Shown here in pieces: positions 28,877 through 63,883 of a stretch of DNA of 64,000 nt. Where the stretch lies: assembly GCF_014208035.1 (NCBI RefSeq), contig NZ_JACHMK010000001.1, positions 2,232,001 to 2,296,000 on the forward strand, given 5' to 3'. The notes under the pieces are model-generated. The model saw nothing but the letters and a program-made list of their open reading frames with translations. It ran no database searches and was not told the origin of the DNA. Source of the DNA: Schaalia hyovaginalis. Lineage in GTDB: Bacteria > Actinomycetota > Actinomycetes > Actinomycetales > Actinomycetaceae. The number at the start of each line of letters is the position of its first letter. The first letter of the stretch is position 1. The translations under genes were made by a program, and so were the position numbers.

Positions 28877-28878
28877 GC

Positions 28879-30614: not shown

Positions 30615-30980
30615 ATGAGCTACATCATCCGCAGCGGAAACCTCACCGGCGCACCCGCCACGACCACCACCGACCGGGGGCGCACGCTCACGCACGCCAG
30701 GGTCGCCGTCACCGACCGTGTGCGAAGCGAGGACGGTGAATGGGCCGAAGGCGCCACCGTCTTCTACGACCTCACCATCCCCGGCACCCCCGGCGAAAGG
30801 CTCGTCGGCTTCCAGGAACGTGCAGGCAACCGACGCATCGTCTTCGCCGGAACCTACAGCGTGCGCGAGTGGACGGGACGCGACGGCGAGACGCGCCTCT
30901 CCCACCAGGTGTGGGTCGACCACATCGGCGCCGACCTCGCCACCAACGACCTCGCCCTCGCCCTCACCGACGACGAGTAG
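30615..30980 (+). CDS. ssb: Single-stranded DNA-binding protein
   Basis: 121 aa, single OB-fold: begins MSYIIRSGNLTGAP, with HARVAV and strand pattern as in SSB. AAAGGA ribosome site. It lacks the long glycine-rich linker and typical DDDIPF tip of chromosomal SSB. Probably coats the transferred or replicating strand. Confidence 0.85.
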   Translation: MSYIIRSGNLTGAPATTTTDRGRTLTHARVAVTDRVRSEDGEWAEGATVFYDLTIPGTPGERLVGFQERAGNRRIVFAGTYSVREWTGRDGETRLSHQVWVDHIGADLATNDLALALTDDE

Positions 30981-31055
30981 GCGGACGCAAACGCCAGCGG
31001 GCACTGACACCATTACCAGCACAACCCGCAACGCCAGCACCGCGGGCACCCAGGT

Positions 31056-31074
31056 GTGTGTGCACACCCGACGT
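31056..31074 (+). promoter_or_regulatory. Dispersed 19-bp motif, copy 2
   Basis: GTGTGTGCACACCCGACGT, identical to copy 1, 37 bp upstream of the methylase-helicase start. Confidence 0.6.
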
Positions 31075-31110
31075 GATCACAGACGCGATCACCACGGGAA
31101 GGGACCACCG

Positions 31111-34100
31111 ATGGCCCGGCACACCACCACCGACGAGAACCAGCTCGACCTGTTCTCCATCTTCGAAGAGCAGGACGTTTACAAGGAGGAACACGATGCG
31201 CTACGACACGAGCGGCAGAACCTACTGGTACCAGTGGTGGAAGGACCGGATTCTCAGCGACAGGCAAGCGAGCGTGTTCCTCATCGACACGATGACCCAT
31301 TGGGAGCAGATCTTCCTCGAGGAGACCATCGAGGAGCACGCCCAGCTCTTCAACCCGACGGATCCGGCCTGGAGTCCGATCGACTGGGCTGGGGAGTACA
31401 CGGTCGAGGACACGACGGACCCGCAGGAAATCCGGCTGCTCCAGAATCAGCTCGAGAAGGAGATCCTCACGCGCTTCTACGAGCTGGCGATGGCGCGACT
31501 GTGCATCCTGACCGGGATGGGATCGGACTGGAACGGAGCTCCCTGGACGGAATCCGACTTCGATCCGAAGCTCGACTTGAATCGGTTGACGATGCTGGTC
31601 CAGGGCGACGACAGAGACCGGGCAGCACAGTGGATGCTCAACCACGGCCCCGTGGATACCGAGACGATCCTCGTCTGGTTCATGATGTGGTGGCTCGACC
31701 GGCCCCTGCCGGAGGGTCTGGTGGAGACTCCGCCGGCCCAGTGGGACACGATCAGCTCGACGCATCGGTATCCCACTCCGATTCCGTTCTGGGTTGGCGA
31801 GACGCGCCCCTTCTCCCAGTGGGTGAACGATCTGATCTTGCAGCTCGCGCAGCGCAAGGGCCTGGACTGGGAGGACCTCATGGAGCTGACGGCAGAGGAC
31901 GAGCAGTAGGCCCCTCCTTCACCCCGTCATCACACGCGACGCCCTCCACCCCCACGCGGAGAGCCGACGCGAACCTCCACGCGATCAGCCTCCTTCACGT
32001 CCTCGAATCCGAAGGCCGCCCCGCCACCCCCGCCGAGCAGGCTCAGCTCGCCCAGTGGAGCGGATGGGGCGGCCTGTCGGGGATGTTCGATGAGTCCAAG
32101 CCCGAATGGGCCTCACGGCGCGAGCACCTCCAGGGCCTCCTCAACGATGAGGACTACGCCCAGGCGCGCGCCAGCGTCCTCAACGCCCACTACACCCACG
32201 CCCAATACGTCGAAGCGATCTGGCACTCCCTCGCCGCCCACGGCCTCACCTCCGGGCACGTCCTCGAGCCCGGATGCGGGGCGGGCACCTTCATAGGGCT
32301 CGCCCCCGACGGCGTGGCCATGACGGGCGTCGAACTCGACCCGACGACCAGCCGAATCGCCCACGCCTTGTACCCGAACGCGGAAATCCGCAACGAGGGT
32401 TACGAAAAGACACCGACAACTCGGCTTTTCGACGCTGCGGTAGGGAACGTCCCCTTCGGGGACTACGCCCTCTACGATCCGGCGAACAACCCCGGCGAGC
32501 ACTCCATCCACAACCACTTCATCATCAAAGCTCTCGCCCAGACCAAGCCCGGCGGCTACGTCGCAGTCCTGACCAGCCACCACACGCTCGACGCGAAGAA
32601 CCCGTCCGCCCGCCGTGACATGTACGAGCGCGCCGACCTCATCTCCGCGATCCGTCTCCCGTCGGGCGCGCACGAGCAGACCGCCGACACGCAGGTCGTC
32701 ACCGACCTCCTCGTCTTCCGCGTCCGCAAGGACGGTGAAGAGCCTCGTGCGTTCACCTGGGAGCACGCTCACTCTCACGTTCTCGCCCCCGAGGCGACCC
32801 CGGTCGCGATCAACGATGCGATCATGAGCCGACCGGACCGGGTGATCGGCACCATGTCCGCCACGCGGGGCCTCTACGGCGCAGTCGGCCTTCACGTCGC
32901 TTCCACGACGGACGCCTCCACCATCGCAGCCCAGATCACGAGCCGCCTCGACCAGGACCTCACCCAGGCGACCATTGAGGGCCTAGCCTACGACTCCACC
33001 CCAGCTCCCACCATCGACGCGACCGCAGGCATCACCGTCGACGCGCGCGAGCTCGGCTCCCTGCGATCCAACAAGGGCGCCTTCGAACGCCTCGGCGCCG
33101 ACGGCTGGGAAGCGATCAAGGTCCCCAAGACTCAGCAGGCCGAGCTCGCGCGCCTGCTCGATCTTCGCGACCGCACCCGGACCCTCCTCACCCTGGAGAC
33201 CCGCAGCCGCACGGACACGCCTGAGATGACGGCGTGCCGCCAGGGCCTGCGGGACGCCTACATGGCCTACACCGTGGACTTCGGTCCCCTCAACCGCGCC
33301 AAGCACCGCACGCACATCACGATCGACAAGAAGACCGGTGAACAGGAAGAGGACATCATCACCACGCGCCCGCCGGTCTTCCGGATCTTCGCGAAGGACC
33401 CCTACGCCGCACTCACCCGCGCCATCGAGGTCTACGACGACGAGGCCGAGACTGGCCGGCCCGCTCCGCTGCTGGAGCGACGCCAAGTGTTCGCCTCATA
33501 TGTCCCCAAGGGCGCTTCGACCCCTGAAGACGCACTCGCGATCTGCCTCGACCAGAAGGGCAGCATCGACCTCGACTACTGCCAGTACCTACTCGCAGCC
33601 ACAGACACCAGAGAAGCTCGCGCCACGCTCGGCGAGCTCGTGTTCGACACCCCCGAAGGCCACATCGTGCGCCGCGAGGAGTACCTGTCGGGCAACGTGC
33701 GCGCCAAGCTCGCGGCCGCCAAGGAGCTGGCCCTCACCGACCCGGCGTTCCAGGCCAACGTCGACGCCCTCCAGTCCGTCATGCCCGACGACCTCGGAAT
33801 CGCCGACATCTGCGTCACCCTCGGCGCCCCCTGGATCCCCGTGAAGGACCACCAGGCGTTCCTGTCTCGCGAGCTCAACCTTCCCGGACGGCTCACGTAC
33901 AACCCGTCAGACGGGTGGGGCCTGACCGGCGCCCCCACGCACGGCATCAACCAGACCTCCCGATGGGGAACCGACCGCAAGACCGGAACCGACATCTTCA
34001 AGGACCTGCTGAACTCCAAGGAAATCAAGGTCACCGACACGGTTCCCGTGACGCGCGACGACGGATCACCGACCACCCGCACCGTTGTCAACCGGGCCGC

Positions 34101-40881: not shown

Positions 40882-41321
40882 ACGCCTCGCCCGCCCCCAA
40901 TATGCACAGCCGCTAGAGCCTTGAGAGCTCCGCCTGCACACAGTGGGGACGGGCGAGGCCACTTCGACGGGGCGCCCACCCTCCGGCGCCCGGGGCTTCG
41001 CGCCCACCGCGCTCGCCCCTGGGACGCCGAACGTGGACGCCCCGCATTTTCCCACGCATCGAGGCGCATCAGGCTGGGCCTCATTCGCCCTCGCATGCAG
41101 GCATGGCCTCCATGCTCGCTCCGCCACTTAGACACCGCCCGAGGCGGCGTTACGCGCAAGCGCGCCCCACCAGGGGCGCGCGTAAGCGCAGGCGGAGCAA
41201 GTTGATACATAGTGGGAACACTATGAGCACTTGGGCTGGACGCTGTGCGGCCACCCTGGCACACTGGACGTGTGATCCCCTGTGGGGTCGTTGCACTGAG
41301 CTAATGACGAACGGAGCCGCC
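40882..41321. other. Probable transfer origin (oriT) region
   Basis: About 440 bp without a convincing gene, directly upstream of mobC and the relaxases, where oriT usually lies. Structure: an imperfect inverted repeat at about 41148-41189 centred on GCGCGCCCC / GGGGCGCGC (41160-41181), and a small perfect hairpin CATAGTG-GGAA-CACTATG at 41208-41225. The nic site cannot be placed from sequence alone. Confidence 0.5.
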
Positions 41322-41720
41322 ATGAACGCCGACTCGGACGCTTCGCGTTCGGGTCGACGTTTGCCTCGAAGTGTTGCCGGTGTGAAGCGGCGCGCTCTGA
41401 AGGTAACCCTGTCATCTGATGAGTACGCGGCTCTTCGTGCGCGAGCAGAGAATACGGGCGAGTCGATGTCGCGAATTCTGGTTCGTTCCGCGACAACTGG
41501 TGGAACATCCGATCAGATTGACGGAGCGCGTCTCGATGAACTCATGCATGTGCTCACCGACTTGCAGACGCAAGTGCGAGGAGTGTCGGGCAACCTCAAT
41601 CAGCTCGCCCACTGGGCGAACTCGCACCATGCATTCCCCGAAGAGGCCGCTGATCTTGCGAAGCGTGTTCGCAGGATCCTCGTTGACATTGAGCACACCT
41701 TTGAGGGAGTGCACCGATGA
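41322..41720 (+). CDS. mobC: MobC-like relaxosome accessory protein
   Basis: 132 aa from ATG 41322 (GGAG upstream). A basic N-terminus with RALKVTLSSDEYAALRARAENTGESMSRILVRSA, as in ribbon-helix-helix MobC proteins, then the MobC hallmark VSGNLNQLAHWANS. Overlaps the first relaxase by 4 nt. Expected to bind oriT and help open it for nicking. Confidence 0.85.
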   Translation: MNADSDASRSGRRLPRSVAGVKRRALKVTLSSDEYAALRARAENTGESMSRILVRSATTGGTSDQIDGARLDELMHVLTDLQTQVRGVSGNLNQLAHWANSHHAFPEEAADLAKRVRRILVDIEHTFEGVHR

Positions 41721-42334
41721 TTCCCAATATCGTCGACGGTGGCGACACTGCCGGCCTTATGCGCTACCTCGTAGGACCGGGCGGAGCGGGTGAACATGAA
41801 GATCCGCACCTGGTTGCGGGAGATGGTGTCCTTCTCGATTTCTTTCCTGATCGCTTTGAATTGAACGTTGATGTCGCAACACAGATTGCGTCAATGCTGG
41901 ACCGCTACATGAACGTCATGCGCGTCCATCCGACCGGACGGATACGCAATTTCAGCGCCAAGACCGGAAAGACCGAAGTCATCGGTCGCGGCAGGAACCA
42001 CGTCTGGCACTGCACGTTGTGCCTGTCCCCCACTGAGTCATTCCTTGAAGACGAGACATGGCAATTGATTGCCACCGACTTCATGGACGAGATGGGCTTT
42101 ACCGAAGCGTCTGGCAAAGCACCCTGCCGGTGGGTTGCCGTGCGACACGGCGCATCGAAGAACGGTGGGGACCACATTCATATCGCCGCGAACATCGTGC
42201 GTGGTGACGGGACGAAGTGGTCACCGTGGCGCGATCAAGTGATCGCACATCGCGTGTGCAACAGCCTCGAGCACAAGTACGGGCTCGAGGTCTTGGAGTC
42301 ACGCGAGGGTGCTCCGGTGCGAGGCCGAAGATGA
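41717..42334 (+). CDS. Relaxase, short tandem copy (catalytic domain only)
   Basis: 205 aa; ATG overlaps mobC (ATGA). It contains the complete N-terminal relaxase domain: Tyr17 in MRYLVGPG and the HUH-type metal site HIHIAAN. It aligns along nearly all its length with the first ~205 residues of the next gene, including identical runs such as DGGDTAGLMRYLVGPG and SKNGGDHIHIAANIVR, then ends at VRGRR followed directly by the ATG of the second copy. Catalytic residues look intact, so it may be an active truncated relaxase or a decaying duplicate. Confidence 0.85.
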   Translation: MIPNIVDGGDTAGLMRYLVGPGGAGEHEDPHLVAGDGVLLDFFPDRFELNVDVATQIASMLDRYMNVMRVHPTGRIRNFSAKTGKTEVIGRGRNHVWHCTLCLSPTESFLEDETWQLIATDFMDEMGFTEASGKAPCRWVAVRHGASKNGGDHIHIAANIVRGDGTKWSPWRDQVIAHRVCNSLEHKYGLEVLESREGAPVRGRR

Positions 42335-43935
42335 TCTCGCACATTGTTGACGGTGGCGACACTGCCGGCCTTATGCGCTACCTCGTAGGACCGGGCCGCG
42401 CCAATGAACACGAGAACCCGCACCTGGTTGCGGGGGATTCGATCATTATGGATCGCTTCGAGGGGTGGGCGCACCTGAGTCCTGCACAGGCAGGTGAGAT
42501 TGCGTCAATGATCGACCGTTACATGAATGTTCTGTCAGAGCACCCCACTGGCGCTATCCGCAATTTCAATCCCGAGACGGGCACAACGGAAATCGTGGAT
42601 CGCGGGCCGAACCACGTCTGGCATTGCTCACTCTCCCTCCCACCGAGGGCGGGACTCCTCGACGATGAGACGTGGCGGAAGATCGCGCAGGACTTCATGG
42701 ACGAGATGGGCTTTACGGAAGCGTCCGGCAAACCTCCCTGCCGGTGGGTCGCCGTGCGACACGGCACTTCCAAGAACGGTGGCGATCACATTCATATCGC
42801 CGCGAACATCGTGCGCGCCGACGGCACAAAGTGGTCGAGATGGTGGGACTGGAAGAACGCGGGCCGCGCATGCAATACGCTCGAGCACAAGTACGGGCTC
42901 GAAGTCATCGAGTCGCGTGAGCACAATCGCGGAGCGCGCGCTGACACTCCTCACGAGCTCAATGCCGCCAAGCGTGCGGGCAGGCCCGAAACGACGAGGG
43001 CGATGCTGGAGACTCGCGTGCGCGCGGCAGCAGCCGGTGCAGCGAACGAAGCAGAGTTCGTGCGGAGCGTCCGCGAGCTGGGGGTGCGTATTCGTCCGAG
43101 GTTTGCCAAGGGCCGCACCGATGTTGTCCTCGGCTACTCCGTCGCCCTCCACACTGATGCCGCCACAGCTGAAGCGACGCGCTGGTATTCGGGTACTTCT
43201 CTTGCGCGTGACCTCACTCTGGCGCGTCTGAGAGGTAGATGGGCGGTCACTCCCGAAGGTGCACAGGCCGCCGTCGATGAGTGGCGTGCCGCGTGGAGAG
43301 GTGAGCCTGCTCGAAGGCGCGAGCGCCCGTATGATGCGCGCGCCTTCCAGGCGAGCGCCCAGGCACTTAGAGCGCACCGCGATGCGTTCTCCCGGATCGA
43401 CCCAACCGACCCCGTTGCGCTCGCTGACGCGACGCAAGACCTGGCGGGCCTTCTCAGTGCCGCCGCCATGCAGCCTGACCTCGACGCCACGCAGGCACGT
43501 GAATACTCTCGCGCCGCTAGAGCCCTGGGACGCCACGCGCAACTCAAGTCGAGACCGCCGAGACTCTCCCCTACCCGCACACCGTTCACGCACGCGGCAC
43601 GCCTCTTCCTGACCACAAGCAAACCAAAGTCAGATGCGGCCCGAGCAGCGGCGCTCCTGGACGACATGACCGCTTTCGCGCGCTCCCTCGCCAACCTGCA
43701 CCGCGCGGCTCAGCAAGCGCAGACTGCCGCGATGATCGAACGCGACCTTGCCACGCTCTTCGCACACGCGAACTCGCCCGCCCTCGATCCTCAGCTCGCC
43801 CGGATCAAAGAACTCGCCGCTGCTTCTGGCTCGCCCTCCAAGATCGGTCGACCATCACCAACGAGAACACCGTACACGCCCGCTCCGCACGCGCCACGGC
43901 CAGTGGATCGACCGACACACACGCCGCACTTGTAG
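42331..43935 (+). CDS. Relaxase, full-length copy
   Basis: 534 aa from ATG 42331, overlapping the first copy by 4 nt. N-terminal relaxase domain (Tyr17, HIHIAAN), then helical Ala/Arg-rich regions and a Pro/Thr-rich tail. Fits the MobA/VirD2-like (MOBP-type) relaxases of actinobacterial conjugative elements. It nicks oriT, stays covalently attached to the strand and pilots it to the coupling protein encoded at 47321-48982. Confidence 0.9.
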   Translation: MISHIVDGGDTAGLMRYLVGPGRANEHENPHLVAGDSIIMDRFEGWAHLSPAQAGEIASMIDRYMNVLSEHPTGAIRNFNPETGTTEIVDRGPNHVWHCSLSLPPRAGLLDDETWRKIAQDFMDEMGFTEASGKPPCRWVAVRHGTSKNGGDHIHIAANIVRADGTKWSRWWDWKNAGRACNTLEHKYGLEVIESREHNRGARADTPHELNAAKRAGRPETTRAMLETRVRAAAAGAANEAEFVRSVRELGVRIRPRFAKGRTDVVLGYSVALHTDAATAEATRWYSGTSLARDLTLARLRGRWAVTPEGAQAAVDEWRAAWRGEPARRRERPYDARAFQASAQALRAHRDAFSRIDPTDPVALADATQDLAGLLSAAAMQPDLDATQAREYSRAARALGRHAQLKSRPPRLSPTRTPFTHAARLFLTTSKPKSDAARAAALLDDMTAFARSLANLHRAAQQAQTAAMIERDLATLFAHANSPALDPQLARIKELAAASGSPSKIGRPSPTRTPYTPAPHAPRPVDRPTHTPHL

Positions 43936-44136: not shown

Positions 44137-44409
44137 ATGATGCACACCGACGAGGCGTATGAAGATTTCAGTCCGATGATCTACGACATCATGCGCGAGT
44201 TGGCGACTCAGCTCGGCGGACGCTACATCGAGTGGATGGACGAAGCGGAAGACCCGGATGCGAGAGAGCACTGGCGTCACGAGCAGTTCCGCGTCATGCG
44301 TGAAGTCCGCGCCGTCAACCCCGACAGCCTCCAAGAAATCGAAGAACACACCGCCAAGCTCCAAGCCGAGCTGCGGGCAATGCCGCGCTACGCGCCTGTA
44401 CTCGCGTGA
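44137..44409 (+). CDS. Putative antitoxin of the zeta module
   Basis: 90 aa, ATG 44137 with GGAAGGATC upstream (ATG 44140 is next). Acidic, helical (MIYDIMRELATQLGG, EIEEHTAKLQAELRA). Overlaps the zeta toxin start by 4 nt (GTGA), the position of the cognate antitoxin. It shows no helix-turn-helix, so unlike PezA it is probably not a repressor; closer in size to epsilon but without clear likeness. Confidence 0.65.
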   Translation: MMHTDEAYEDFSPMIYDIMRELATQLGGRYIEWMDEAEDPDAREHWRHEQFRVMREVRAVNPDSLQEIEEHTAKLQAELRAMPRYAPVLA

Positions 44410-45461
44410 CCAGCGAGTTGAGCGCACGCGTTCTGCGTGAGCGTTTCGAGACGAGGATCGTTCCCTACCTTGATGACCTGCGCGAGCAGGCCCGCGATGA
44501 CAGTTCATGGCCGCCGGTCCTCGTGTACACAGGAGGCCAACCGGGAGCAGGCAAGAGCAGGGCGAACGAGCGCGCCGCACAGGCGCGCCCTTCTCTCGTT
44601 CCCATCATCGGTGATGATTTGCGTCAGTTTCATCCCGCCTACGCGCAGATCATGCGCGATGACCCGGCCTCAATGCCAGAGCGCACGGCCCATGCATCGG
44701 GACAGTGGATCGCAATGTCCGCCCGCTACTTGCGTGAGCGCCGCGCTGACGTGCTCATCGAGACGACGCTGCGTTCCCCTGAGGCGATGGCGTCGACTAT
44801 CGCCTCGTTTCGTGAGGCGGGCTACGTTGTCGAGATGCGCATGGTCGCAGTCCCTGAAGAAGTCTCGCGTCTTGCCACCATTGAGCGCTATGCCGGGCAA
44901 GTGACCTCGACGGGAGTGGGACGATGGACGCCCTCAGATATGCACGATGAGGCTTATGCGGCAGCCCCGCACACCGTTGAATGTCTCATTTCCTCGGGAG
45001 CCGTTGACCGGTTCGTCCTTGAAGACCGCGCGGGCCGAGTGCTTGTCGACTCCACGTACTTTGGTCTACGCGACGCCCAGCTTTCAGAAGCAGGGCGGAG
45101 CGCAGCCGAAGAATTCACCTCGCAACGCTCAGTCGATACCCTTGACACGCCGAGCGCGCTCGCTTGGATGCAGCAGGCCAGACGCCAGCTCGAATTCGTG
45201 CGCCACCTCGACCACCCAGACACTGACCTCATCGCCACCCTCACGCGCAGTCTCACTGTTGATGCGCCTGTTATCGCCGGAAGAGCGTATCGCGATGATC
45301 CCAACCGGGCAGGCGACGAGCTGGACTTCCTTCGCATCGCCGCTCGCATGTTCACTCTCCCCCACACGCAGGCACCGAAGGATGTTCCTTCGCTCCAGTC
45401 CCCTACAAACAGTCCGGCCCTTCGTTCAACGGAAGGACGCACTCACGGGAGGCAGGTGTGA
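44406..45461 (+). CDS. Zeta-type toxin kinase
   Basis: 351 aa, GTG start. Walker A GGQPGAGKS (residues 43-51), GDDLRQFHP (69-77) and IETTLR, all diagnostic of zeta/PezT toxins, which phosphorylate UDP-N-acetylglucosamine and block wall synthesis. The C-terminal ~150 residues are extra relative to short zeta toxins and helical. In the ICE it should punish loss of the element. Co-translated with the upstream antitoxin and the downstream resolvase. Confidence 0.9.
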   Translation: MTSELSARVLRERFETRIVPYLDDLREQARDDSSWPPVLVYTGGQPGAGKSRANERAAQARPSLVPIIGDDLRQFHPAYAQIMRDDPASMPERTAHASGQWIAMSARYLRERRADVLIETTLRSPEAMASTIASFREAGYVVEMRMVAVPEEVSRLATIERYAGQVTSTGVGRWTPSDMHDEAYAAAPHTVECLISSGAVDRFVLEDRAGRVLVDSTYFGLRDAQLSEAGRSAAEEFTSQRSVDTLDTPSALAWMQQARRQLEFVRHLDHPDTDLIATLTRSLTVDAPVIAGRAYRDDPNRAGDELDFLRIAARMFTLPHTQAPKDVPSLQSPTNSPALRSTEGRTHGRQV

Positions 45462-46048
45462 GCGCACGTGTCGGGTATGCGCGAGTCTCTACGCGCGAGC
45501 AGAACCCGCAGGCCCAAGAAGCCCTTTTGCGGGAGGCCGGATGCGAGCGCATCTTCACCGACCACGGAGAATCAAGCCGCACGGTGGCGCGCCCCCAGTG
45601 GGAAGCGTGCTTGGACTACCTGCGCAGGGGCGACACCTTGGTGATCGTTGCTCTGGATCGCATCGCGGGCACAGAACGCATGGCGATCGAGATCATCCGC
45701 GACCTTGCTCACCGAGGCGTGCGCCTCAAAAGCCTCACTGAGGCTTTCCTTGACGTGGACACCTCCACGCCAATGGGAGAAGCGATCATCGGGATCATGG
45801 CGGTCCTAGCCCAGCTGCGCGTCGCCACGATCCGTGAAAACACAAGGCGAGGGCTCGAACACGCCCGCGCCCAAGGCCGGCGCGGAGGTCGCCCGACGGT
45901 GATGACACCTGAGAAGACCCAAGCCGCGCGCCTCATGCGCCAAAACGGCTACAGCTTCGCCCATATCGGCAAGAGTCTCGGTGTCGGCGCATCCTCCGTC
46001 GCACGCGCACTCTCCCGACCCGAAACCACCGAACCGGCGCAGCAATAG
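45458..46048 (+). CDS. Serine recombinase (resolvase/invertase)
   Basis: 196 aa, GTG start overlapping the toxin by 4 nt. Catalytic Ser11 in YARVSTREQN, Arg pair in LDRIAGTERM, the E-helix and a C-terminal helix-turn-helix (YSFAHIGKSLGVGASSVARAL). Typical small resolvase. Probably resolves multimers or rearranges the element; tying it to the toxin operon is common on plasmids. Confidence 0.92.
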   Translation: MSARVGYARVSTREQNPQAQEALLREAGCERIFTDHGESSRTVARPQWEACLDYLRRGDTLVIVALDRIAGTERMAIEIIRDLAHRGVRLKSLTEAFLDVDTSTPMGEAIIGIMAVLAQLRVATIRENTRRGLEHARAQGRRGGRPTVMTPEKTQAARLMRQNGYSFAHIGKSLGVGASSVARALSRPETTEPAQQ

Positions 46049-46613: not shown

Positions 46614-47324
46614 TTAGAGGGTCTGAGAGCGTTTGTGGCGCATTTTGTTGGCCCGATACGACGAGACTGTGCTCCCTTTCCGCCCCTTCTTCGCCTGCGA
46701 CACGAAAGTCTTGCGTGCTGGGGCGTGCAGTGACGTGTCCGCAAGCAGGGCGCCGTGAAGCGCGTGAACATCTTGACCGGCCGACGCGTGTGCTTTCTGG
46801 GTGATCCATTCGGCCCTGGCTTGCGCCGAATCCCAGGTGACCACACTGCGGGTCGCCTCAGCACTCTCCGTATCTGCCCTTGGCACCTGCACGTTATCGG
46901 CCGGGGCCGTCGCCTCGGCTTCGTCGACGCGTTCGCGCGCGTCGACCGTCTTGGGGTGCTGGGCCTCGCTCTGAGCGTCGGCACGACCTGCGTGCTTGTC
47001 GCACTCACGCGCAGCGAGCGCCGCTTCCGGATCCCACGGGGCGAACGCGCGCGCCGCCTGGACGGCCTCGCGGACATCGTCTACACGAGTCGACGGGTCG
47101 TCCCAGAATCTTGGGTCTAAGGCGCGTCGGTACAGGCGCTGCGCCGCATCTCTCTCCACGTCAAGAGTCCGCCGGAGGCTTTCCACACCCTCATGCGAGA
47201 TCCGGGCCGCGCGTGCCAGGGTCGCGGCGCGTCGTTGCGCCACGGATTCCCCCACCCTCAAAGCAGCGCGGACGATCTTTTCGACCTCCTGGTGCTGAAG
47301 GTCGCCAATACGTTCATCTGTCAT
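46614..47324 (-). CDS. Hypothetical protein, last gene of the secretion operon
   Basis: 236 aa from ATG 47324, overlapping the coupling-protein stop (ATGA). Highly charged, helical, rich in Ala, Arg and Glu, with a basic C-terminus (YRANKMRHKRS). Probably cytoplasmic. No family recognised; position suggests a substrate-docking or accessory role. Confidence 0.7.
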   Translation of the reverse strand: MTDERIGDLQHQEVEKIVRAALRVGESVAQRRAATLARAARISHEGVESLRRTLDVERDAAQRLYRRALDPRFWDDPSTRVDDVREAVQAARAFAPWDPEAALAARECDKHAGRADAQSEAQHPKTVDARERVDEAEATAPADNVQVPRADTESAEATRSVVTWDSAQARAEWITQKAHASAGQDVHALHGALLADTSLHAPARKTFVSQAKKGRKGSTVSSYRANKMRHKRSQTL

Positions 47325-48982
47325 GCGTGCGCTCCCTTTTCTTTCTTTTCTGTCTTCCAGTACGGAATCAATGCTGCGAGGAGGGCCGGCGTGCCCGAGG
47401 CGAACACCCATGCCCTTCCCGCCGGTAGAGCCTGCAAGTCGGCGACCGTAGCGATCGGCCGTTGCTGGGACTCTCGCGAGGTCGACGTCGACCGTCCTTG
47501 CGCGGACGTCGACATCGATCTCGAGTCGACGTAGTGCACGCCAATCAGATCTGACAGCTGCGCCAGGAAGTCGCGCTCAGAGACGCCTCCCCCGTAGACT
47601 TTCACATTGGACGCGCTCCAGAGTTTACGGATGCCGGCATCCCCCCAGGCGTGCGCGCCCTGGCTCCACGACTGAAGGATCGTGTCGACGCAGATCCCAC
47701 GAGACCCGAAATGGCTATACAGGTCGGGAAGATCACGCCATCTACACACATTCGCTGCCTCGTCGAGCTCAATGAGCATCGGGGTCGCCATCCTGCCGTT
47801 AGGTTGGCCTTTCGCGTGAAGGAGGGCCGCCTGCACGACGGCCACCGTCAACGCCGTCACGATCGGCGCCGCTGACCCTTTGCCTTCTTGAGACAGGCAG
47901 TAGAGCGTGTCCGTGGAGGCGACGAACTCCTCTGGCAAAAACTCGACTCCACCGGGTTCTACCCATGCCAACGCCTCCTCGTTGAGGAGAAAGGAGAGGA
48001 TCTGTCCAGCCGACCCGTAGACGCCCGACCTGGTTTCCGCCACCAGGCTCATGTTCGCCGCCAGGGACTGGTAGACCATCTGTTCGCCGCTGCGCTCTAG
48101 AATCCGCAGCGGCTCCCGATCATCCGGGTCGGTGACCCACCGGTACACGTCCCGCAGGCTCTTGTCCCCGCGGCCGCCGGCCAAGAGGAGCGCCGTGACA
48201 ACATCGCGAGCCGCCCCGTCAAAATAAGCGTTGGTCGTAGCGTTGGCGGCCCTCGTCGAATCCACGAACACTTGCGCCAGATCCTTGGCTTCGACCGCAT
48301 TCGTCACCTGCCGAAGCGGGTTCCACCACCAGGAGCGTTCCTCATCGCAAATGCCCTGGGGGTCAAACACCCACACGCGGCCTCGGTCGGCACGCTTCTT
48401 CCGTGTCGAGTCGACGATGTCGCGCTTGTTCGAGGTCGCGACGACGGCGCCGGGGGCCGCGAAAATACGCGGAACCACCCAGCATGTCGTCTTACCGGTC
48501 CTGGGGCCCGAGATGTTGATGCCAACGTCCTCAAATGAACTCACGAGCTCCACGCCGCCTACGACCGACCGGCCGATCGGAAGCCCCACCACGGGGCCCG
48601 CCACGCGCAGGCGTTCTGCTTTCTTCGCTGCGGCCTGGCGGGTCAGCGCATGGATGTCTGATCCTGAGCCCGCAAGGCGAGCCGCACGGTCCCCTCGGCG
48701 CCGCCCCGTCATTCTCGCCGACACGGCACCCGCACCGACGAACACACACCCCACGAGGAGTGCGACACCCAGCGACCATACGAGAACGGCACGAGGAAGA
48801 TCTCCGCGCACGACAGCGGCGAGCACCTCGAACGGCTTGGCAGGGGCGGCCTGGCCCGAGTGCCAGCTCCACAAGCGAGCCCCCGCCCACACGACCCCCG
48901 CAGCGCAAAACGCAACGACGGTCCCTCCGACGAACAGAAGTGTCTGGCCGTCCCACGTGCGCATGTCGTCGCGCAGGCTCAT
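47321..48982 (-). CDS. virD4: Type IV coupling protein (TraG/VirD4)
   Basis: 553 aa from ATG 48982 (GGGAG upstream; overlaps the VirB4 stop). Two N-terminal transmembrane helices (about residues 15-40 and 68-90), Walker A GPRTGKTT, Walker B LIELDEAANV, and the TraG-type C-terminal ATPase region (SGICVDTILQSWSQ-like). It links the relaxase-DNA complex to the secretion channel. Confidence 0.93.
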   Translation of the reverse strand: MSLRDDMRTWDGQTLLFVGGTVVAFCAAGVVWAGARLWSWHSGQAAPAKPFEVLAAVVRGDLPRAVLVWSLGVALLVGCVFVGAGAVSARMTGRRRGDRAARLAGSGSDIHALTRQAAAKKAERLRVAGPVVGLPIGRSVVGGVELVSSFEDVGINISGPRTGKTTCWVVPRIFAAPGAVVATSNKRDIVDSTRKKRADRGRVWVFDPQGICDEERSWWWNPLRQVTNAVEAKDLAQVFVDSTRAANATTNAYFDGAARDVVTALLLAGGRGDKSLRDVYRWVTDPDDREPLRILERSGEQMVYQSLAANMSLVAETRSGVYGSAGQILSFLLNEEALAWVEPGGVEFLPEEFVASTDTLYCLSQEGKGSAAPIVTALTVAVVQAALLHAKGQPNGRMATPMLIELDEAANVCRWRDLPDLYSHFGSRGICVDTILQSWSQGAHAWGDAGIRKLWSASNVKVYGGGVSERDFLAQLSDLIGVHYVDSRSMSTSAQGRSTSTSRESQQRPIATVADLQALPAGRAWVFASGTPALLAALIPYWKTEKKEKGAHA

Positions 48983-50475
48983 GCGTGCATCTCCCATCGC
49001 TGGTTGGTGTTCGACAACCCGCGCGACACTTCAGAGTGCACGAAGTCGACACGCAAAGCGAACCCCGGAGCACCAGAGGTTTTCAGGAGGAACTTGCCGC
49101 GCCCCACAGGAGCAGACTCCCTGCCGGTCGCCGGGTCATAGGTGCCCGGCGCGTTCCACGAGGCAAGCAGGTCCTGCTCTGCTTGGCTCACCGCCACAAC
49201 CCCAGAGAGCAAGTCCATTTCGCGCGCGGGCAGGCCGCCGAGGAACAGCATCTTCGACCGCTCCACGAAACCGAGGGCTTTGAGACGGTCTGCTTCCGAG
49301 TCCAAGGCAGCGAAGTCACTCATCGAGTGGGTAATCATCATCTGCCCCACACCCACACTCCGGTTGAGTCTGGTCAGAGCGTCGACCCGGTCGACCAGGC
49401 CAGACGAGGAGCGAAGGGTCCGCCATAGTTCATCCATGACGATCATGTAGCGGCGCCTGGGGGCCGCTCCCGCATCCGCGAGACTTTGGGCGATCTCCAC
49501 GGTGGCAAACCCATAGGACCAGCACGCCAGCAGGACAGCGGCCTGAAGGTCAGCATCGGCCTGGAGGAGTGAGTGCACATCGAAGACGACGCTGCGGTCC
49601 ATCATCATCGGCGTCGTCGTCTCCACCGCGAACAGTTCCCCAAACCTGCCTGACAGCAGAGCCATAAGGGAGGCTTCCAGCGCTTCAGTGATCTCCCTGT
49701 AGTGCGTGTCATCGCCCCGGTCCAAGGCCGCACGGCGAAGCTCGGCTGGCCCTTCTCGCACCACGTCAAGAACGTGAGCGAGCCTAGGGCGCTCATAGCG
49801 CTCTTCGACGATCCGGATCGCCTCATCGAGGATCGTCTCTTCCCTGTCCGTGGGAGCCGACCGGCGGATGATGTGCACGAGGGAGGCGACGAGTGTTTTC
49901 TTGCGTTCGTGCGCTTCGGCCTCCAAAGCGTCGGCCTCTTCCGCGGCCCCCGCGTCTCGCAGCAGGTGTGCCGCTTCGACACTGTTTCCCGCGTCCAACG
50001 GATTGATCCCACCCTTGCCGTGTCCGATCTCAATGACCTGCGCGCCGAGTGCTTCCATGAGATCCACGTAATCCGGCTTGATGTCGCCCAGCACCATCGT
50101 GTGCATCCCGAACGCCTCTAGGCCTTCGATCATGCGGCGCACGAGCGAAGACTTGCCCAAGCCGTTCAGGCCGAGCACCATCGCCGACGGCGCTGAGATC
50201 AGGCCCTTCTCGAACCAGCTGATCGGGTCTGCGCAGATTGTGCCCGTCCCATTTGTCGCCCGCCCCAGGGGAACGCCGACCAGGGGTGCGCCAGACCCGA
50301 CAACGAGCGGGAACAGCCCGCAGACCTGCCTGGTCGTCCCCCGGTAGGGGCGGATGATCGGCATGGATGCGGCATACCCTCCGCCCGGCCTCTTCCAGCC
50401 CCGCTTCATGGCCCCACCCGTACCGGCCCCGGTCAGTTCTGCAAGCAACTGACCCACAAACCCGAAGATGCTCAC
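48979..50475 (-). CDS. virB4: VirB4-type secretion ATPase
   Basis: 498 aa, GTG start overlapping the previous gene. Walker A LGLNGLGKSS at about residue 100, Walker B YMIVMDELWRTL, and the following MMITHSMSDF segment typical of VirB4/TrbE C-terminal domains. The N-terminal half usual for VirB4 is absent here; in this gene arrangement it is carried by the upstream SCO6880-like protein. Confidence 0.88.
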   Translation of the reverse strand: MSIFGFVGQLLAELTGAGTGGAMKRGWKRPGGGYAASMPIIRPYRGTTRQVCGLFPLVVGSGAPLVGVPLGRATNGTGTICADPISWFEKGLISAPSAMVLGLNGLGKSSLVRRMIEGLEAFGMHTMVLGDIKPDYVDLMEALGAQVIEIGHGKGGINPLDAGNSVEAAHLLRDAGAAEEADALEAEAHERKKTLVASLVHIIRRSAPTDREETILDEAIRIVEERYERPRLAHVLDVVREGPAELRRAALDRGDDTHYREITEALEASLMALLSGRFGELFAVETTTPMMMDRSVVFDVHSLLQADADLQAAVLLACWSYGFATVEIAQSLADAGAAPRRRYMIVMDELWRTLRSSSGLVDRVDALTRLNRSVGVGQMMITHSMSDFAALDSEADRLKALGFVERSKMLFLGGLPAREMDLLSGVVAVSQAEQDLLASWNAPGTYDPATGRESAPVGRGKFLLKTSGAPGFALRVDFVHSEVSRGLSNTNQRWEMHA

Positions 50476-51959
50476 AATGCGCCTCCCAGCCGCTGACCAG
50501 TCGGGCGCACGCCCACAGGCAAGCCGAGCGCGAAGGCGCTATCTTGCGCGCCGTACGCAAGCCTGACCTGGAGGCGCGACGCGGCCGCCAAGGCCGTGAC
50601 CGCAGAAGACGTGTCCTCCATGTCCTCACTCATCGTCGTGGCCGTAATCACCATCCCGAAGTCCACCAATCCCGCGCCTGCCGCCTCTTCGGCCGCGACC
50701 TGTTGCGCCGCGTGCAACTCATTGAGTGAGCGGGCGGTGGGCCGGCCCATTGTCTCCACGCGAGCGCGCGCCTTGTTGAGGTCTGCCTCCACGACTCCTG
50801 GGGCTTTGCCCGCGTCCATCGGCCGATACAGGATCGTCACCCGCTTGCGCGCCACATCCGCGTTGGCTGACAAGATCGTGCGCAGGATCGACGACTGAAC
50901 CACACCCCTCGGGGGTGCAGACACCACCCACGAGCGAGAGCGCCCCGAATCATGCACGTAGGTATCCCACTGAGCATGAGCCGTCACCGGGCCCGCGTCC
51001 CCCCACGACACATGCACCTCCTCGCCGGCCGCCGCCGCGTCCTCGAACAACTCTTCACACGCCGGGTCGTAAGCGACGCGCACCAGGCGCACCACCTCAT
51101 CGACCGTCATCAGATGCACAGCCCCAGCCCCCGCCGCCACAAGCGTTTGTGTGAGCCCCGGAAGCCGGGTCCCAATGTCGCGTGCCGCCTGATCGAACTG
51201 GCGACGCTTAGCTCCCATCCGCGCCGGGTCAAACACCACAGTGATCCAGGTACGCACCTGCGCTGACCCCGCCTTGTACTCCTCGACCACCTCACGCATG
51301 ATTTGACGCGCCAAATCAGGCGCATCCGGGCTCATACGACGCGTCACTTCACGGTCAAGCCGCGACCCTGTATCCGGAGACGTCTCCACGCACACCGATG
51401 CGCCCACGATCCCCAGCTCTCCGCCCAGATCAGCCAGCCACTGACCCCAGTAGGCGACCTGAAGATCCACATGCTCCGTGTCCAGCAGATCAGCCCCCGA
51501 AGGCGCAACCTTGAGGACGACAGCGAGACTGCCGTCCGCGTGACGGATCAACGCAAAAGGGCGATCATACGAGTCAACCTGACTCGACAGGGTCGAGGCC
51601 GACAAGACTCCCGGCAACATGCAGTGACCAGAAGCGACAGAGGCGGGAGCAAGCGGCCCCGACCGATAGATGTTCTCCTTCTTACGCGATGCCCTCCAAA
51701 ACCTCATCGTCTCCCCCATCCTGTCTGCAAGAGAAATACCGTGCCTGTCTTTGACTGAAATGGCCCAGATCGCGCCCGCCGACACCGCGCCCACGAGCGT
51801 CGACCACAAGGGACCCGCCAGCGCGTAGACGAGGACCATGAGGATCATGGCGACAAGCACACCCATCGACGCAGCGAATGAGAGTTGCCCAAACCCCGCA
51901 GCCGACGGCCTGCGCCAATTCCCATACGTCCTGGGGCCTTCATGTTCACCGCTACTCAT
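50472..51959 (-). CDS. SCO6880 family secretion protein (PrgI-VirB4 N-terminal-like)
   Basis: 495 aa. Two hydrophobic helices near the N-terminus (about residues 28-70, PrgI-like), then a soluble mixed domain. Position before the VirB4 ATPase with a 4-nt overlap is the standard SCO6880 arrangement in actinobacteria; the two proteins together correspond to one full-length VirB4. Confidence 0.82.
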   Translation of the reverse strand: MSSGEHEGPRTYGNWRRPSAAGFGQLSFAASMGVLVAMILMVLVYALAGPLWSTLVGAVSAGAIWAISVKDRHGISLADRMGETMRFWRASRKKENIYRSGPLAPASVASGHCMLPGVLSASTLSSQVDSYDRPFALIRHADGSLAVVLKVAPSGADLLDTEHVDLQVAYWGQWLADLGGELGIVGASVCVETSPDTGSRLDREVTRRMSPDAPDLARQIMREVVEEYKAGSAQVRTWITVVFDPARMGAKRRQFDQAARDIGTRLPGLTQTLVAAGAGAVHLMTVDEVVRLVRVAYDPACEELFEDAAAAGEEVHVSWGDAGPVTAHAQWDTYVHDSGRSRSWVVSAPPRGVVQSSILRTILSANADVARKRVTILYRPMDAGKAPGVVEADLNKARARVETMGRPTARSLNELHAAQQVAAEEAAGAGLVDFGMVITATTMSEDMEDTSSAVTALAAASRLQVRLAYGAQDSAFALGLPVGVRPTGQRLGGAL

Positions 51960-58568: not shown

Positions 58569-61190
58569 TCAGACGAGCTGACGACGACGAATGCCGAGGA
58601 TCGTCACGCCCACGCCCAGGACGACCAGGGAGGTCACACCGAAGAAGGCAGCGTCGGTGCCCGTCACCGGCAAGGTCGGCTTGGGGGAGTCGACCGTAAC
58701 GGTCTGGCCCTCGTCGTTGATGTCCGCGTGCGCAGCAACCTCAACACCGTTGCTCGTCGCCTTCTCGAAGACGACGATCGATTGGCCAGCAAGACCGGAC
58801 GTGTTGAAGTGGAACGAGACGGTCTCACAGCCCTTCGAATCCGCCGGGGTGAACTTCACCGACGAGGTGACAGGCTTGCCCGCAACCATGAGCTCCTTGC
58901 CGGTGGCCTTGTCCATGAGCGTGCCCGACAGCTCGTACTCCTTGCCGACGGCGAGGTTCTCGTAGCACACCTTGTCGTCCAGGACGACATCAGCGTTCGG
59001 GGCGAGCGTCTTGTCGGCGTCGGCATGATCGGTGGCCGTGGTGCCAAGCTTCGGGCCGGGCGTCTTCACGGTCTGCCCCTCGTCGTTGATGTCCGCGTGG
59101 GTCGCGACCGTCTTGCCGTCACGCGTGAGATCTTCGAATACGACCGTCGTCTTGCCCGCGAGAACCGAGGCATCGACAGTAATGTGCACCGTCGTGCAGT
59201 CGTCAGCCTTGGTCGGCGTGTGCTTGACCGTCGCCTGGACCGTCTTGCCCTCATCGTCGACGAACGGCTTGCCCGTCTCCTTGTCCATGAGCGTGGCAGT
59301 GAGCTCGTACTCCTTGCCCACAGCCAGGCCCGTGTAGCACACCTTGTCAGACACGGTAACGGTGCCGGAGGCAGCGAGCTCCTTGTCGCCGTCCGCCTTG
59401 TCCGTCGCAGTCGTCTTAAGGGTCGGGATCACGCCCTCGACCGTGAACTGCTCGGTCTTGTCCTCAACGCTAGTCGTCATCGGCGCCACACGATCATCAC
59501 CCGCAAAGGAAGTGACGAACACGTAGGTGCCGGACTCGGACGGATCAACCTTGAAAGAGTTCGAGCCCACCGTCGGATTGAAGCCATTCTTGGCAGGGAG
59601 AGTAACCTTCGCGACCACCCTCGCCTGCGCCTTGTTCGCCTCGGTCACGTCCAGGCCCTCCGGGAAGAACAGAAGAGTCTGATCCATCGTCTTCACGTCA
59701 GCCTTGAAGCCCCGGTCACCCGCGAAATCCGGATGATCCGACGGGAATCCGTCGACCCACACGTCATCAACGAGATAAGTGCCAGCCTTCGTCTCGCGCG
59801 ACGAGATCGCCGTGTTGATCTCCACCGGGAAGCGCTTCGACGTGATCTCCTTGTCCATCGCATACCCGTCAGTCCAGTCCTCATGGACGAACTCAGAAGC
59901 CGTGTACTCCTTGCCGCCCGTGGTGACCGGAGCCGTCTGGTCGGCCTTGACGACCTTCCACACCCACGTCACGAAGCCCGACGGGACCTGCACGCCCTCA
60001 AGGGTGGCGGTCTGCGTACCCGGCCCATCAAACGTCAGCGTCGCAGACCCGAGAATCTTCGCATCAGCAGGCACCGAATCCGACTTCGCGGCCGGCCGCT
60101 CACCCGTCCAATACGCCGTACCCACATAGGTCACCGGCACATTCTTCCCATCCAGAGACAGCCACTGGCCATCACCGTAATCAGCCTTCGCGCCAGCAGT
60201 AAACGTATCCGAAACCGGGGTCCCCTCATCAACGACGCGAGCAGCCGCAACGTCCGACGTGCCAACAGGCTGGAAATCAAAAATCACATCCCACGTCGGC
60301 CCCTGAGCAATCTCAGAACGCGGGTGCTCATTGTCACCCCAGATCACATCCTGGCGACCGCCCCCGGGAGACGCATAGCCAAGAGACGAGTTGCCAAGAT
60401 CGCCATATTCAACGTGGTAGCTTGCACCTCCATTTCCAGTTGAATGCCACTTGATACCGTCGATTCGCGTTGCAGCGGTCGAGGAAGAGTATGTGTTCGT
60501 ACCAGTGGCATCGAAGACAGCCGGGCCGGTCATCGTGATGGTGAACGGCTTGCCCGCCACATAGGCAGCAGCCCCGTTCTTCACGCCGATTCCGTCGATC
60601 GTGCCGAAGCGAGTCCCAGTGCCGGTCACCTCACCCGGCTCCCACGCGACAACGCCAGCCGCCTGCGCAGCAGCGACCATCTGACGCGCGCGGTCCTGAA
60701 TCGTCGCCGGCGTGATCCCGAGGAGCGTGTTGACGTTCGTCTGCGACTGCGCACCTGCGTTCTCGAAGTTCACGTGTGCAAGGAATCCGACTGCAGCGGC
60801 ATCCAGGTCGGTGTCAGAGAACTGAAGTGACGTCGGCATCCAGTTCTTCATGATGTACGCCATCTGCGGAATGTCGACGCTCAGATCAGCGGGCCGGCTC
60901 AGATTCGGCTGGTCTGTCAGCTGTCCCGGTGTCACCGCCACCTCCGCCGAAGGGTTCACGGCGTTCGCCTGGATGCACAGGCCCGGAACAGGCTGACCCT
61001 GATAGGGAATCCAGGTGCCGAGCCATCCGGTCCCGCCAGGGATCGGCATTCCTCGCACCCAGGAGCCCGCAGCCATCGCGGGCAGAGACACGATCATCGT
61101 CATCGCGATCATCGCGACTCCCAATGCTGCGGCTACGATGGACCGTAGCCGTGAGTGGCGCACAGGGGCGCCGATGGCAGACTTTGCCAT
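58569..61190 (-). CDS. VaFE-repeat surface protein with LPVTG anchor
   Basis: 873 aa. Signal peptide with a long hydrophobic core (about residues 19-41), a large N-terminal region with Trp/Gly-rich segments, and two ~105-residue repeats near the C-terminus, each containing DKVCY.(N/G)L.VGKEYEL, VVFE and HADINDEGQTV, the VaFE isopeptide-forming type. LPVTG near residue 840, hydrophobic helix, RRRQLV. AAGGAAGG ribosome site. Carried by the ICE, it probably mediates mating-pair or aggregate formation; the host's own sortases would anchor it. Confidence 0.9.
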   Translation of the reverse strand: MAKSAIGAPVRHSRLRSIVAAALGVAMIAMTMIVSLPAMAAGSWVRGMPIPGGTGWLGTWIPYQGQPVPGLCIQANAVNPSAEVAVTPGQLTDQPNLSRPADLSVDIPQMAYIMKNWMPTSLQFSDTDLDAAAVGFLAHVNFENAGAQSQTNVNTLLGITPATIQDRARQMVAAAQAAGVVAWEPGEVTGTGTRFGTIDGIGVKNGAAAYVAGKPFTITMTGPAVFDATGTNTYSSSTAATRIDGIKWHSTGNGGASYHVEYGDLGNSSLGYASPGGGRQDVIWGDNEHPRSEIAQGPTWDVIFDFQPVGTSDVAAARVVDEGTPVSDTFTAGAKADYGDGQWLSLDGKNVPVTYVGTAYWTGERPAAKSDSVPADAKILGSATLTFDGPGTQTATLEGVQVPSGFVTWVWKVVKADQTAPVTTGGKEYTASEFVHEDWTDGYAMDKEITSKRFPVEINTAISSRETKAGTYLVDDVWVDGFPSDHPDFAGDRGFKADVKTMDQTLLFFPEGLDVTEANKAQARVVAKVTLPAKNGFNPTVGSNSFKVDPSESGTYVFVTSFAGDDRVAPMTTSVEDKTEQFTVEGVIPTLKTTATDKADGDKELAASGTVTVSDKVCYTGLAVGKEYELTATLMDKETGKPFVDDEGKTVQATVKHTPTKADDCTTVHITVDASVLAGKTTVVFEDLTRDGKTVATHADINDEGQTVKTPGPKLGTTATDHADADKTLAPNADVVLDDKVCYENLAVGKEYELSGTLMDKATGKELMVAGKPVTSSVKFTPADSKGCETVSFHFNTSGLAGQSIVVFEKATSNGVEVAAHADINDEGQTVTVDSPKPTLPVTGTDAAFFGVTSLVVLGVGVTILGIRRRQLV

Positions 61191-62901: not shown

Positions 62902-63159
62902 TCACCGCACGCCCCCCACCAGCGAAGGCCGCCGACCAGGGAGCCGACGCGCGCTGATCAACGCCACGCCGGCAACGATGAGAACAACAAGGACGACACC
63001 GACAGCCGCATCAACGACCTCACACGCGACACGAACACACCGGAACACCTCCACCTGCCCAGCACGCGGGACCACCGGCTCGCACCAGACGACCTTCCCC
63101 GCATCCACAAACGGCGGATCATCTACTACGCCTGACCAGCGCACCGTCATTGTTGTCAC
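62902..63159 (-). CDS. Small single-pass membrane protein after the excisionase
   Basis: 85 aa; GTG overlaps the excisionase stop by 4 nt (GTGA). One transmembrane helix near the C-terminus (AVGVVLVVLIVAGVALIS) followed by Arg-rich residues. The coupled start and the clear helix support it as a real gene; no family recognised. A frame on the other strand (62831-63190) looks spurious. Confidence 0.55.
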   Translation of the reverse strand: MTTMTVRWSGVVDDPPFVDAGKVVWCEPVVPRAGQVEVFRCVRVACEVVDAAVGVVLVVLIVAGVALISARRLPGRRPSLVGGVR

Positions 63160-63419
63160 ACCGCCGTCACAAGATCCGACACTTCGGTGACCGAGGGCGA
63201 AGTCGGCGCATCGTGTGACGTGGGAGCTGCGGCGGTGACCGGAGTCAGCAAAGCCTCAATATCCGCGCGACGGAAGTACAACCGACCCGAGGGATACCGC
63301 AGGCACGGCAGCTCACCTGCCTTCGCCCAACGTCGCACCGTATAGGCAGTCACACCGAGAATCTCACCCGCCTGACGTGCATCAATTCGCACATTGCTTT
63401 GCATATTCTGTATTGTCAT
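63156..63419 (-). CDS. xis: Excisionase-like MerR-type DNA-binding protein
   Basis: 87 aa from ATG 63419, chosen because TTGACT and TAATCA sit at promoter spacing just upstream. DARQAGEILGVTAYTVRRWAKAGELPCLRYPSGRLYFRRADIEALL is the HTH_17 pattern of recombination directionality factors. Divergent from the XRE-like gene at 63500 with a shared 80-bp control region. Expected to direct Int towards excision. Confidence 0.85.
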   Translation of the reverse strand: MTIQNMQSNVRIDARQAGEILGVTAYTVRRWAKAGELPCLRYPSGRLYFRRADIEALLTPVTAAAPTSHDAPTSPSVTEVSDLVTAV

Positions 63420-63426
63420 GCTGTCA

Positions 63427-63454
63427 TGATTACATGCACCGATCGATAAGTCAA
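63427..63454 (-). promoter_or_regulatory. Leaderless promoter of the excisionase gene
   Basis: -35 TTGACT (63449-63454) and -10 TAATCA (63427-63432) with a 16-bp spacer; the ATG at 63419 begins 7 nt after the -10, so the transcript should begin at or near the start codon. Confidence 0.55.
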
Positions 63455-63464
63455 CACACCCTCC

Positions 63465-63493
63465 TTGCATCTTTTGCACATCTCGCTTAGATT
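63465..63493 (+). promoter_or_regulatory. Leaderless promoter of the regulator gene
   Basis: -35 TTGCAT (63465-63470), 17-bp spacer, -10 TAGATT (63488-63493); ATG 63500 follows after 6 nt. Two TTGCACA direct repeats (63474-63480 and 63492-63498) overlap it; TGCACA is also the core of the dispersed 19-bp motif. Confidence 0.6.
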
Positions 63494-63499
63494 GCACAC

Positions 63500-63850
63500 A
63501 TGATCGGTTCACAAGCGTCCGAGCTCGTCACGCACCTGACAGTCGACCAAGCCGTAGGAATTGCGGTGAAGCAATACCTCTTCATCAACGCGATCCCCGC
63601 AACGAAACTGGCAAGTGTTCTCGAACTGTCCAGTGCCACTGTTTCGCGGAAGCTTCGCGGCCTTGTGGGATGGTCGACCGAAGAGCTCATGCTCACTGCG
63701 GCTTTCCTCAACATCTCAGTTCAAGACCTGATCCCCCAGGCTGACGGCTTGGGCGGCTGGTTGCCTGCTCCGTATCGCCCGGCGCGCGGCGATCGGGTAC
63801 CTGAGTTGGTGCCCCAAGTCGGGCTTGAACCGACGACCGACGGATTATGA
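63500..63850 (+). CDS. XRE-like regulator whose 3' end lies in the attachment site
   Basis: 116 aa in the integrated state. Helix-turn-helix region PATKLASVLELSSATVSRKLRG with ELMLTAAFLNISVQDLI, like small phage repressors. The last 13 codons (VPQVGLEPTTDG...) are the tRNA 3' end read backwards, and the stop TGA (63848-63850) comes from the chromosomal side of the junction. In the excised circle the same frame joins 25406 and stays open to 25661: 603 nt, 200 aa, adding a hydrophobic stretch (LAIAIVAVVSFLL) and a Pro/Ala-rich tail. Likely the control gene of excision/integration. Confidence 0.8.
   Translation: MIGSQASELVTHLTVDQAVGIAVKQYLFINAIPATKLASVLELSSATVSRKLRGLVGWSTEELMLTAAFLNISVQDLIPQADGLGGWLPAPYRPARGDRVPELVPQVGLEPTTDGL
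63806..63846. repeat. attR: 41-bp repeat inside the tRNA gene
   Basis: Exact copy of 25365-25405. It supplies the 3' half of the intact tRNA gene at this end, so tRNA function is preserved after integration. Confidence 0.95.
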
Positions 63851-63883
63851 GTCCGCTGCTCTGACCGACTGAGCTATTGGGGC
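63807..63883 (-). tRNA. tRNA with CAT anticodon (tRNA-Met, or Ile2 after lysidine modification)
   Basis: Complete cloverleaf on the minus strand: acceptor GCCCCAA / TTGGGGC, D-stem GCTC/GAGC, anticodon loop CTCATAA between GCGGA and TCCGT, T-stem GTCGG/CCGAC with loop TTCAAGC, discriminator A and encoded CCA (74 nt plus CCA). It lacks the unpaired first base of initiator tRNA. The CAT anticodon also fits Ile2; identity elements cannot be settled by eye. Confidence 0.95.

Follow-up and report, generated by a model that had tools for sequence, protein, structure and literature searches.

Integration-dependent immunity, in which a repressor gene upstream of int contains tRNA-antisense text, is described in several published reports (PMC4557955, PMC5559632, PMC9262239, PMC8092301). 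In phage BPs, the short form of the repressor is active and the long form is not (PMC4557955). The -AA tag is absent in some M. abscessus prophages, namely MabC, MabN, MabO and MabH, according to PMC8092301. State-dependent int promoters have already been described for other ICEs: in ICEKp1, a promoter at the opposite end of the element drives int after excision, and analogous behaviour is given for ICEclc and ICEEc1 (PMC13023037). In the open-access literature, we found no report joining an attP-in-regulator switch of the phage type to an ICE. For most ICEs, it is an open question how the transfer genes stay off in the chromosome and are silenced again in the recipient.

The window analyzed here, a 64-kb stretch of DNA from Schaalia hyovaginalis, contains a 38.4-kb element bounded by two 41-bp repeats that are 100% identical. 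Repeat comparison placed the attL core at 25365-25405 and the attR core at 63806-63846. A complete tRNA gene with anticodon CAT, the integration target, was called by ARAGORN at the right end only (63807-63883, minus strand), and none was called at the left end. The attR copy corresponds to the 3′ half of this complete gene, and the end of the repeat falls in the anticodon loop. In 9/35 genomes of the genus (own included; by eye), the left flank was found approximately 90-130 bp from a tRNA 3′ half on the same strand, and in G012 (L200), the one of these nine that was tested, the tRNA at the empty site was complete. The adjacency of flank and tRNA, together with the complete tRNA in G012, indicates that the repeats mark the insertion.

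The gene set of a T4SS-type ICE, i.e., relaxase, coupling protein and VirB4-type ATPase, is present between attL and attR. Both the relaxase (PF03432) and TraG exceeded Pfam cut-offs, and the VirB4 candidate, which fell under the curated NCBIfam cut-offs, is VirB4-like only. The MobC and relaxase genes occupy 41103-43935 on the plus strand, with the relaxase region partly duplicated (41716-42182 and 42330-42796, 75-80% identity, 614-nt shift). The T4SS core (47321-51959, minus strand) comprises a TraG/VirD4-type coupling protein, a VirB4-like ATPase (weak matches) and an SCO6880-family protein, and genes for ParA, DUF2786, glutaredoxin-like and SLT/NlpC-P60 cell-wall hydrolase proteins lie at 26861-30382 on the plus strand. 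With MobC, relaxase, coupling protein, VirB4-like ATPase, SCO6880-family protein, ParA and SLT/NlpC hydrolase all present, the element is an ICE by gene content. Cargo was observed at 30718-37044, 44406-46048 and 58569-61190, and includes a 2108-aa SNF2/helicase protein, a zeta-toxin gene, a resolvase and a TQ-ester-domain surface protein. In addition, four related 32-nt repeats (CCAGCAC...CGCAACGCCAGCA) occur in the left part of the ICE at 26412, 28053, 29323 and 31016, and short words resembling them were also seen to the right of attL in several elements.

At the right end of the element, a Cro/C1-type regulator is encoded at 63500-63850 on the plus strand; its integrated short form has 116 aa and an end that reads tRNA antisense (VPQVGLEPTTDGL). 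The ATG at 63500 is in frame with the start of the repeat (306 nt, 102 codons), and the TGA at 63848-63850 begins 1 nt past the attR repeat, in chromosomal DNA. An ORF with an HTH_17/excisionase-type domain is divergent from the regulator in the Cro/Xis position (63156-63512, minus strand, putative start). Upstream of the regulator is a -35/-10-like promoter with a leaderless layout (63465-63493, plus strand), in which a -35-like TTGCAT (63465-63470) is separated by a 17-nt spacer from a -10-like TAGATT (63488-63493) whose end lies 6 nt upstream of the ATG. Many of the 45 loci compared likewise have a -10-like hexamer approximately 6-7 nt ahead of an ATG (by eye, uncounted); among these 45 regulator start regions, a start codon was not found for G013 and G142. 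The recurrence of the hexamer at the same distance makes a leaderless start at 63500 likely, and the regulator is probably leaderless. When the regulator was used to scan genome contigs, only two loci matched, both weakly, and a scan of viral contigs gave no locus.

Since attP lies within the regulator gene, the integrated element encodes the 116-aa form, which stops in host tRNA antisense. Joining position 63846 to 25406, as in the excised circle, keeps 347 + 256 = 603 nt open, and the predicted product has 200 aa. The 3′ continuation of the frame (25406-25661, plus strand) adds 85 codons, including the junction codon, before the stop. It opens with a hydrophobic segment (LLAIAIVAVVSFLLQ; 25406-25448, plus strand), whose first codon straddles the junction and whose best 15-residue mean hydropathy is 2.71. 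The predicted long form ends GGWFQ and not -AA; an ssrA-like -AA end is thus absent in the window. In the circle, the tyrosine integrase gene (25564-26421, plus strand) would come after the regulator; it begins within the extension in a different frame, and the stop of the extension lies 95 nt inside int. The regulator promoter would then read through attP into int. The initial annotation had described a frame that enters the repeat on a codon boundary, a circle frame that is open to 25661 and a promoter that points through attP to int; this description is exact to the base, and all its coordinates hold.

This organization is widespread. In a first set, regulator matches were detected in 23 of 98 genomes, a tRNA was found at 25 of 26 loci scanned, and in 25 of 26 frames, taken from the window and 25 relatives (several as fragments), the regulator frame continued for 37 nt or more on the antisense strand of the tRNA; in L015, where a frameshift is apparent, the regulator stopped at the edge of the tRNA. 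In the bacterial family as a whole, 96 of 213 genomes had regulator matches. The comparison set included 46 elements, i.e., 45 further stretches and the window, with L134 and L154 omitted as contig ends. The regulator adjoined a tRNA in 45 of the 46 (the exception is G154b), and in all 45 its stop was located 37-68 nt inside the tRNA. Target tRNAs were of Met, Thr, Lys and Arg types. The attL site could be placed in 30 elements; 15 of the 45 tRNA-adjoining elements were without a usable attL, two of which were recovered later. Conservation of the frame across attP in related ICEs had been proposed as a check by the initial annotation, and the frame was open through the repeat in 30/30 elements with attL placed, the window included, and the stop of the integrated form begins between 2 nt before the repeat end (completed outside) and 24 nt after it. 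Of the 30 elements, 22 had an int homologue no more than 4 kb from attL, that of G132 being only partial and weak. TraG, VirB4-like, SCO6880-family and relaxase proteins were all matched in 17 of 46 elements (the window and 16 others, by eye), under the handles G000a, G008, G025, G023, G031, G003, G056, G206, G113, G143, G105, G201, G116, G109, G244, G243 and G214, where G201 and G244 were counted on a stretch without a bounding attL. At the level of encoded sequences, the integration-dependent change of the regulator is real and conserved on an ICE family.

The window integrase is 40-44% identical to phage integrases among the best 20 of 509 matching records, and the matches listed include Gordonia phages GMA5 and Emperor and mycobacteriophage Taheera. 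The regulator had six weak matches among phage records, including Pipp, IdentityCrisis and Bunker, and its profile matches were phrog_4583 and phrog_2328. In six phages inspected by eye, the repressor gene lies ahead of int and includes tRNA-antisense text. Features of an immunity cassette found in the window are an attP core in the repressor frame, a stop at the junction, a repressor and a tyrosine integrase in the same direction, and attB in a tRNA. The reading in the initial annotation is supported in part: integration changes the C-terminus of the encoded regulator, the cassette is related to that of phages with integration-dependent immunity, and relatives share the open frame across attP.

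We consider it fairly probable that this ICE carries a regulatory switch that depends on integration, in which the short form would repress, the circle tail would inactivate and the promoter would then read int. While the element is chromosomal, the short form would repress the divergent xis-type gene and the transfer genes. In the circle, i.e., in the donor after excision and in the recipient after transfer, the tail would disable the repressor by proteolysis and/or membrane trapping, and the regulator's own promoter would read into int. Re-integration would remove the tail and restore silence. By analogy with the phage repressors, the tail is likely to inactivate the repressor.

An extension could also be open by chance. 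The main count was made on 26 elements, the window included; G033 and G112 (partial repeat), G008 (near-duplicate of the window) and G152 (near-duplicate of G057) were left out. A frame was scored as open if it continued for at least 40 codons after attP, and as strongly hydrophobic if a 15-residue stretch with mean hydropathy of at least 1.4 occurred within 40 residues. The regulator frame was open in 21/26 elements vs 20/52 for the other two forward frames (Fisher one-sided p ~4e-4), and strongly hydrophobic in 16/26 vs 7/52 (Fisher one-sided p ~2e-5); reverse frames reached the hydrophobic cut-off in 10/78 cases. In 400 dinucleotide shuffles, the maximum counts were 16 (open) and 8 (hydrophobic).

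Two elements without an exact attL, G000b and G106b, were recovered by mismatch search. G000b (attL with 7 mismatches) has an extension of 86 aa with hydropathy 1.83 and fits the pattern; G106b (3 mismatches) has an open frame of 52 aa that ends -AA, and its hydropathy of 0.99 is below the cut-off. Candidates with mismatches were also present in G120a (9 mismatches) and G234 (8 mismatches). G000b is a second such regulator in the genome of the window, at another CAT tRNA (G000:C1, approximately 1925349-1945408; L094 from 19554 to L095). When the recovered elements and the near-duplicates were put back and near relatives were collapsed, 30 elements formed 24 clusters, with medians of 19/24 vs 21/48 for openness (p ~0.004) and 13/24 vs 6/48 for hydrophobicity (p ~3e-4). 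T at the second codon position, which is a mark of hydrophobic codons, had a frequency of 0.40 in the regulator frame vs 0.24 in each of the other frames. Significant differences were kept in strict clusterings at 0.7 and 0.5 identity. Looser clusterings, which over-linked elements, gave no significance (p 0.26 and 0.31 with 10 clusters, 0.45 and 0.19 with 9 clusters). On the basis of frame-specific openness, hydrophobicity and cluster-collapsed counts, the chance-only reading of the open frame was rejected. A codon-position substitution test on close pairs revealed no third-position excess and no clear purifying selection on exact residues. In a random-substitution test with nine comparisons, random outcomes were as good in a fraction of 0.04-0.41, weakly favouring an open hydrophobic frame. 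Our reading is that openness and hydrophobicity of the extension appear to have been kept and its exact residues not.

Proteins resembling the predicted long forms occur in databases. A profile built from regulators together with their tRNA-antisense ends identified 124 proteins, of which 119 were examined: in 28, at least 15 residues followed the tRNA-antisense signature, in 72 there were fewer, and in 19 the search pattern detected no signature. The pattern missed P0107 and P0115, both of which continue past the tRNA antisense. Predicted circle tails matched such proteins in 7/30 cases (G110, G120b, G132, G143, G116, G113 and G243; E up to 1e-4), the closest being G110 (100% over 51 aa) and G120b (98% over 41 aa); the window's own tail had no match among the 119 database relatives. 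Natural long-form proteins need contiguous junction DNA, in a circle or a tandem copy, and variation in frame or sequence could account for some of the 28. P0068, P0080 and P0082 enter the tRNA in another frame (GARTHDLRI) and yet have a G143-like tail, which would fit a compensating indel. A relative of the regulator was also observed on a Corynebacterium mustelae plasmid (L203:4956-5267), with its own stop right after the conserved WLPAP motif and with RepA instead of int downstream; because of this stop and RepA, the plasmid was rejected as a circular ICE form. That this relative, with no such integrase nearby, ends after WLPAP agrees with a tail that is part of the integration module.

These data bear on the possibility that only the promoter is switched, i.e., that the circle lets the regulator promoter drive int, with the extension being a by-product or noise that is never translated. 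We regard this as unlikely. State-dependent int promoters in ICEKp1 and, analogously, in ICEclc and ICEEc1 (PMC13023037) provide a precedent, and the extension's exact residues are without clear conservation. However, openness and hydrophobicity are specific to the regulator frame, database proteins carry the same tails in frame, and an extension of 34-82 codons stays in G105, G110, G113 and G109 although the detected int lies more than 1 kb past it.

The tails are of several kinds. Strongly hydrophobic tails were found in the window and G000b. Amphipathic tails have a hydrophobic stretch around a conserved Glu, with E-H or E-Y in 7 of ten chosen by eye. In P0045, a database protein of the amphipathic kind, the tail was modelled as one long helix with low to modest confidence (block means 43-69), preceded by a low-confidence linker. 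A third kind runs in frame into the integrase (G003, G056 and G206); in G214, the frame heads into int likewise and stops inside it. Finally, some tails are very short: G037 (8 aa), G052 (7 aa), G170 and G150 (23 residues, hydrophobic). G109 is listed among the short or non-hydrophobic exceptions. An -AA end was present in 1/32 predicted circle forms (G106b) and 9/28 database long forms. Among the database tails, those with -AA had the lower hydrophobicity (9 vs 19, p = 9e-4; 5 vs 14 with relatives collapsed by hand, p = 0.04), as expected if -AA and hydrophobicity are alternative inactivating signals. The integrases of G113 and G170 also end in -AA, like the tagged integrases of phages.

The initial annotation had called the long form membrane-type, with a Pro/Ala-rich tail. 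The hydrophobic stretch is indeed frame-specific, but it exceeded the cut-off in only 16 of the 26 elements, and the remainder are amphipathic or very short, or end in -AA in some database forms. The Pro/Ala-rich part is present, but short DNA repeats (GCCAGC, TTGCC) coincide with it in several tails, making it weak evidence of protein function, and it was set aside as a functional part of the protein. The repeats are perhaps integrase arm sites, which would explain the LPALP- and ASN-rich stretches.

The in-frame runs into int in G003, G056 and G206 invite another explanation, namely, that read-through brings ribosomes onto int, or yields a regulator-hydrophobic-integrase fusion, such that integrase is made from the circle only. 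The extension stop 95 nt inside int in the window and the extension/int overlaps in G025, G023, G031, G057, G154, G243 and G212 point the same way. Against this, the extension ends 142 nt (G150) or 62 nt (G170) before int, G105, G109, G110, G113 and G132 (weak match) have int at a distance of over 1 kb, and hydrophobicity is left unexplained; we find integrase coupling quite improbable. It is highly improbable that the long form is an active membrane-bound regulator or sensor working in the circle only, e.g., controlling transfer, since the resemblance of some tails to transmembrane segments is countered by the BPs repressor, active as short form and not as long (PMC4557955), and by the -AA ends of several database relatives.

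Within the favoured regulatory switch, a more specific and rather doubtful idea is that this ICE family, widespread in its actinobacterial family, swapped the phage degradation tag for a hydrophobic segment, which might direct the repressor to the membrane or a membrane protease in the circle only, with one branch having a repressor-membrane-integrase fusion. If so, one recombination event would switch repressor activity, repressor location and integrase supply together. The answer to how transfer genes are kept silent could here sit in recombination itself, with the repressor edited by integration, and a phage principle would carry over to conjugative elements. The switch would also account for the location of nearly all these regulator ends within tRNA genes and for the unusual GFEPATSGL termini of database proteins, and would provide a natural protein-fate switch.

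The closest described systems are BPs and its relatives (clusters G, I, N and P), Gordonia phages and M. abscessus prophages. Shared with them are attP inside the repressor gene, a tRNA target, a repressor upstream of a tyrosine integrase, a divergent Cro/RDF-type gene and a stop supplied at the integration junction, and both repressor and integrase are related. The carriers differ, being phages there and, by gene content, an ICE here. The ends differ as well: when translated, five of six phage repressors end in -AA and that of Taheera in -AS, and their last 60 residues have no strongly hydrophobic stretch (best 15-residue means 0.33-1.19), whereas the tails described here are mostly hydrophobic or amphipathic. 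Unlike in the phage systems, three relatives here run in frame into the integrase. Among ICEs, ICEBs1 has a similar Cro/C1-like HTH repressor, ImmR, whose DNA-binding domain was among the structural matches of the modelled relative P0045; ImmR is not known to span attP or to change its C-terminus upon integration. ICEKp1 and ICEclc are alike in that int is driven after excision from a promoter at the opposite end; their switch lies at the promoter, whereas here the coding frame of the regulator changes too.
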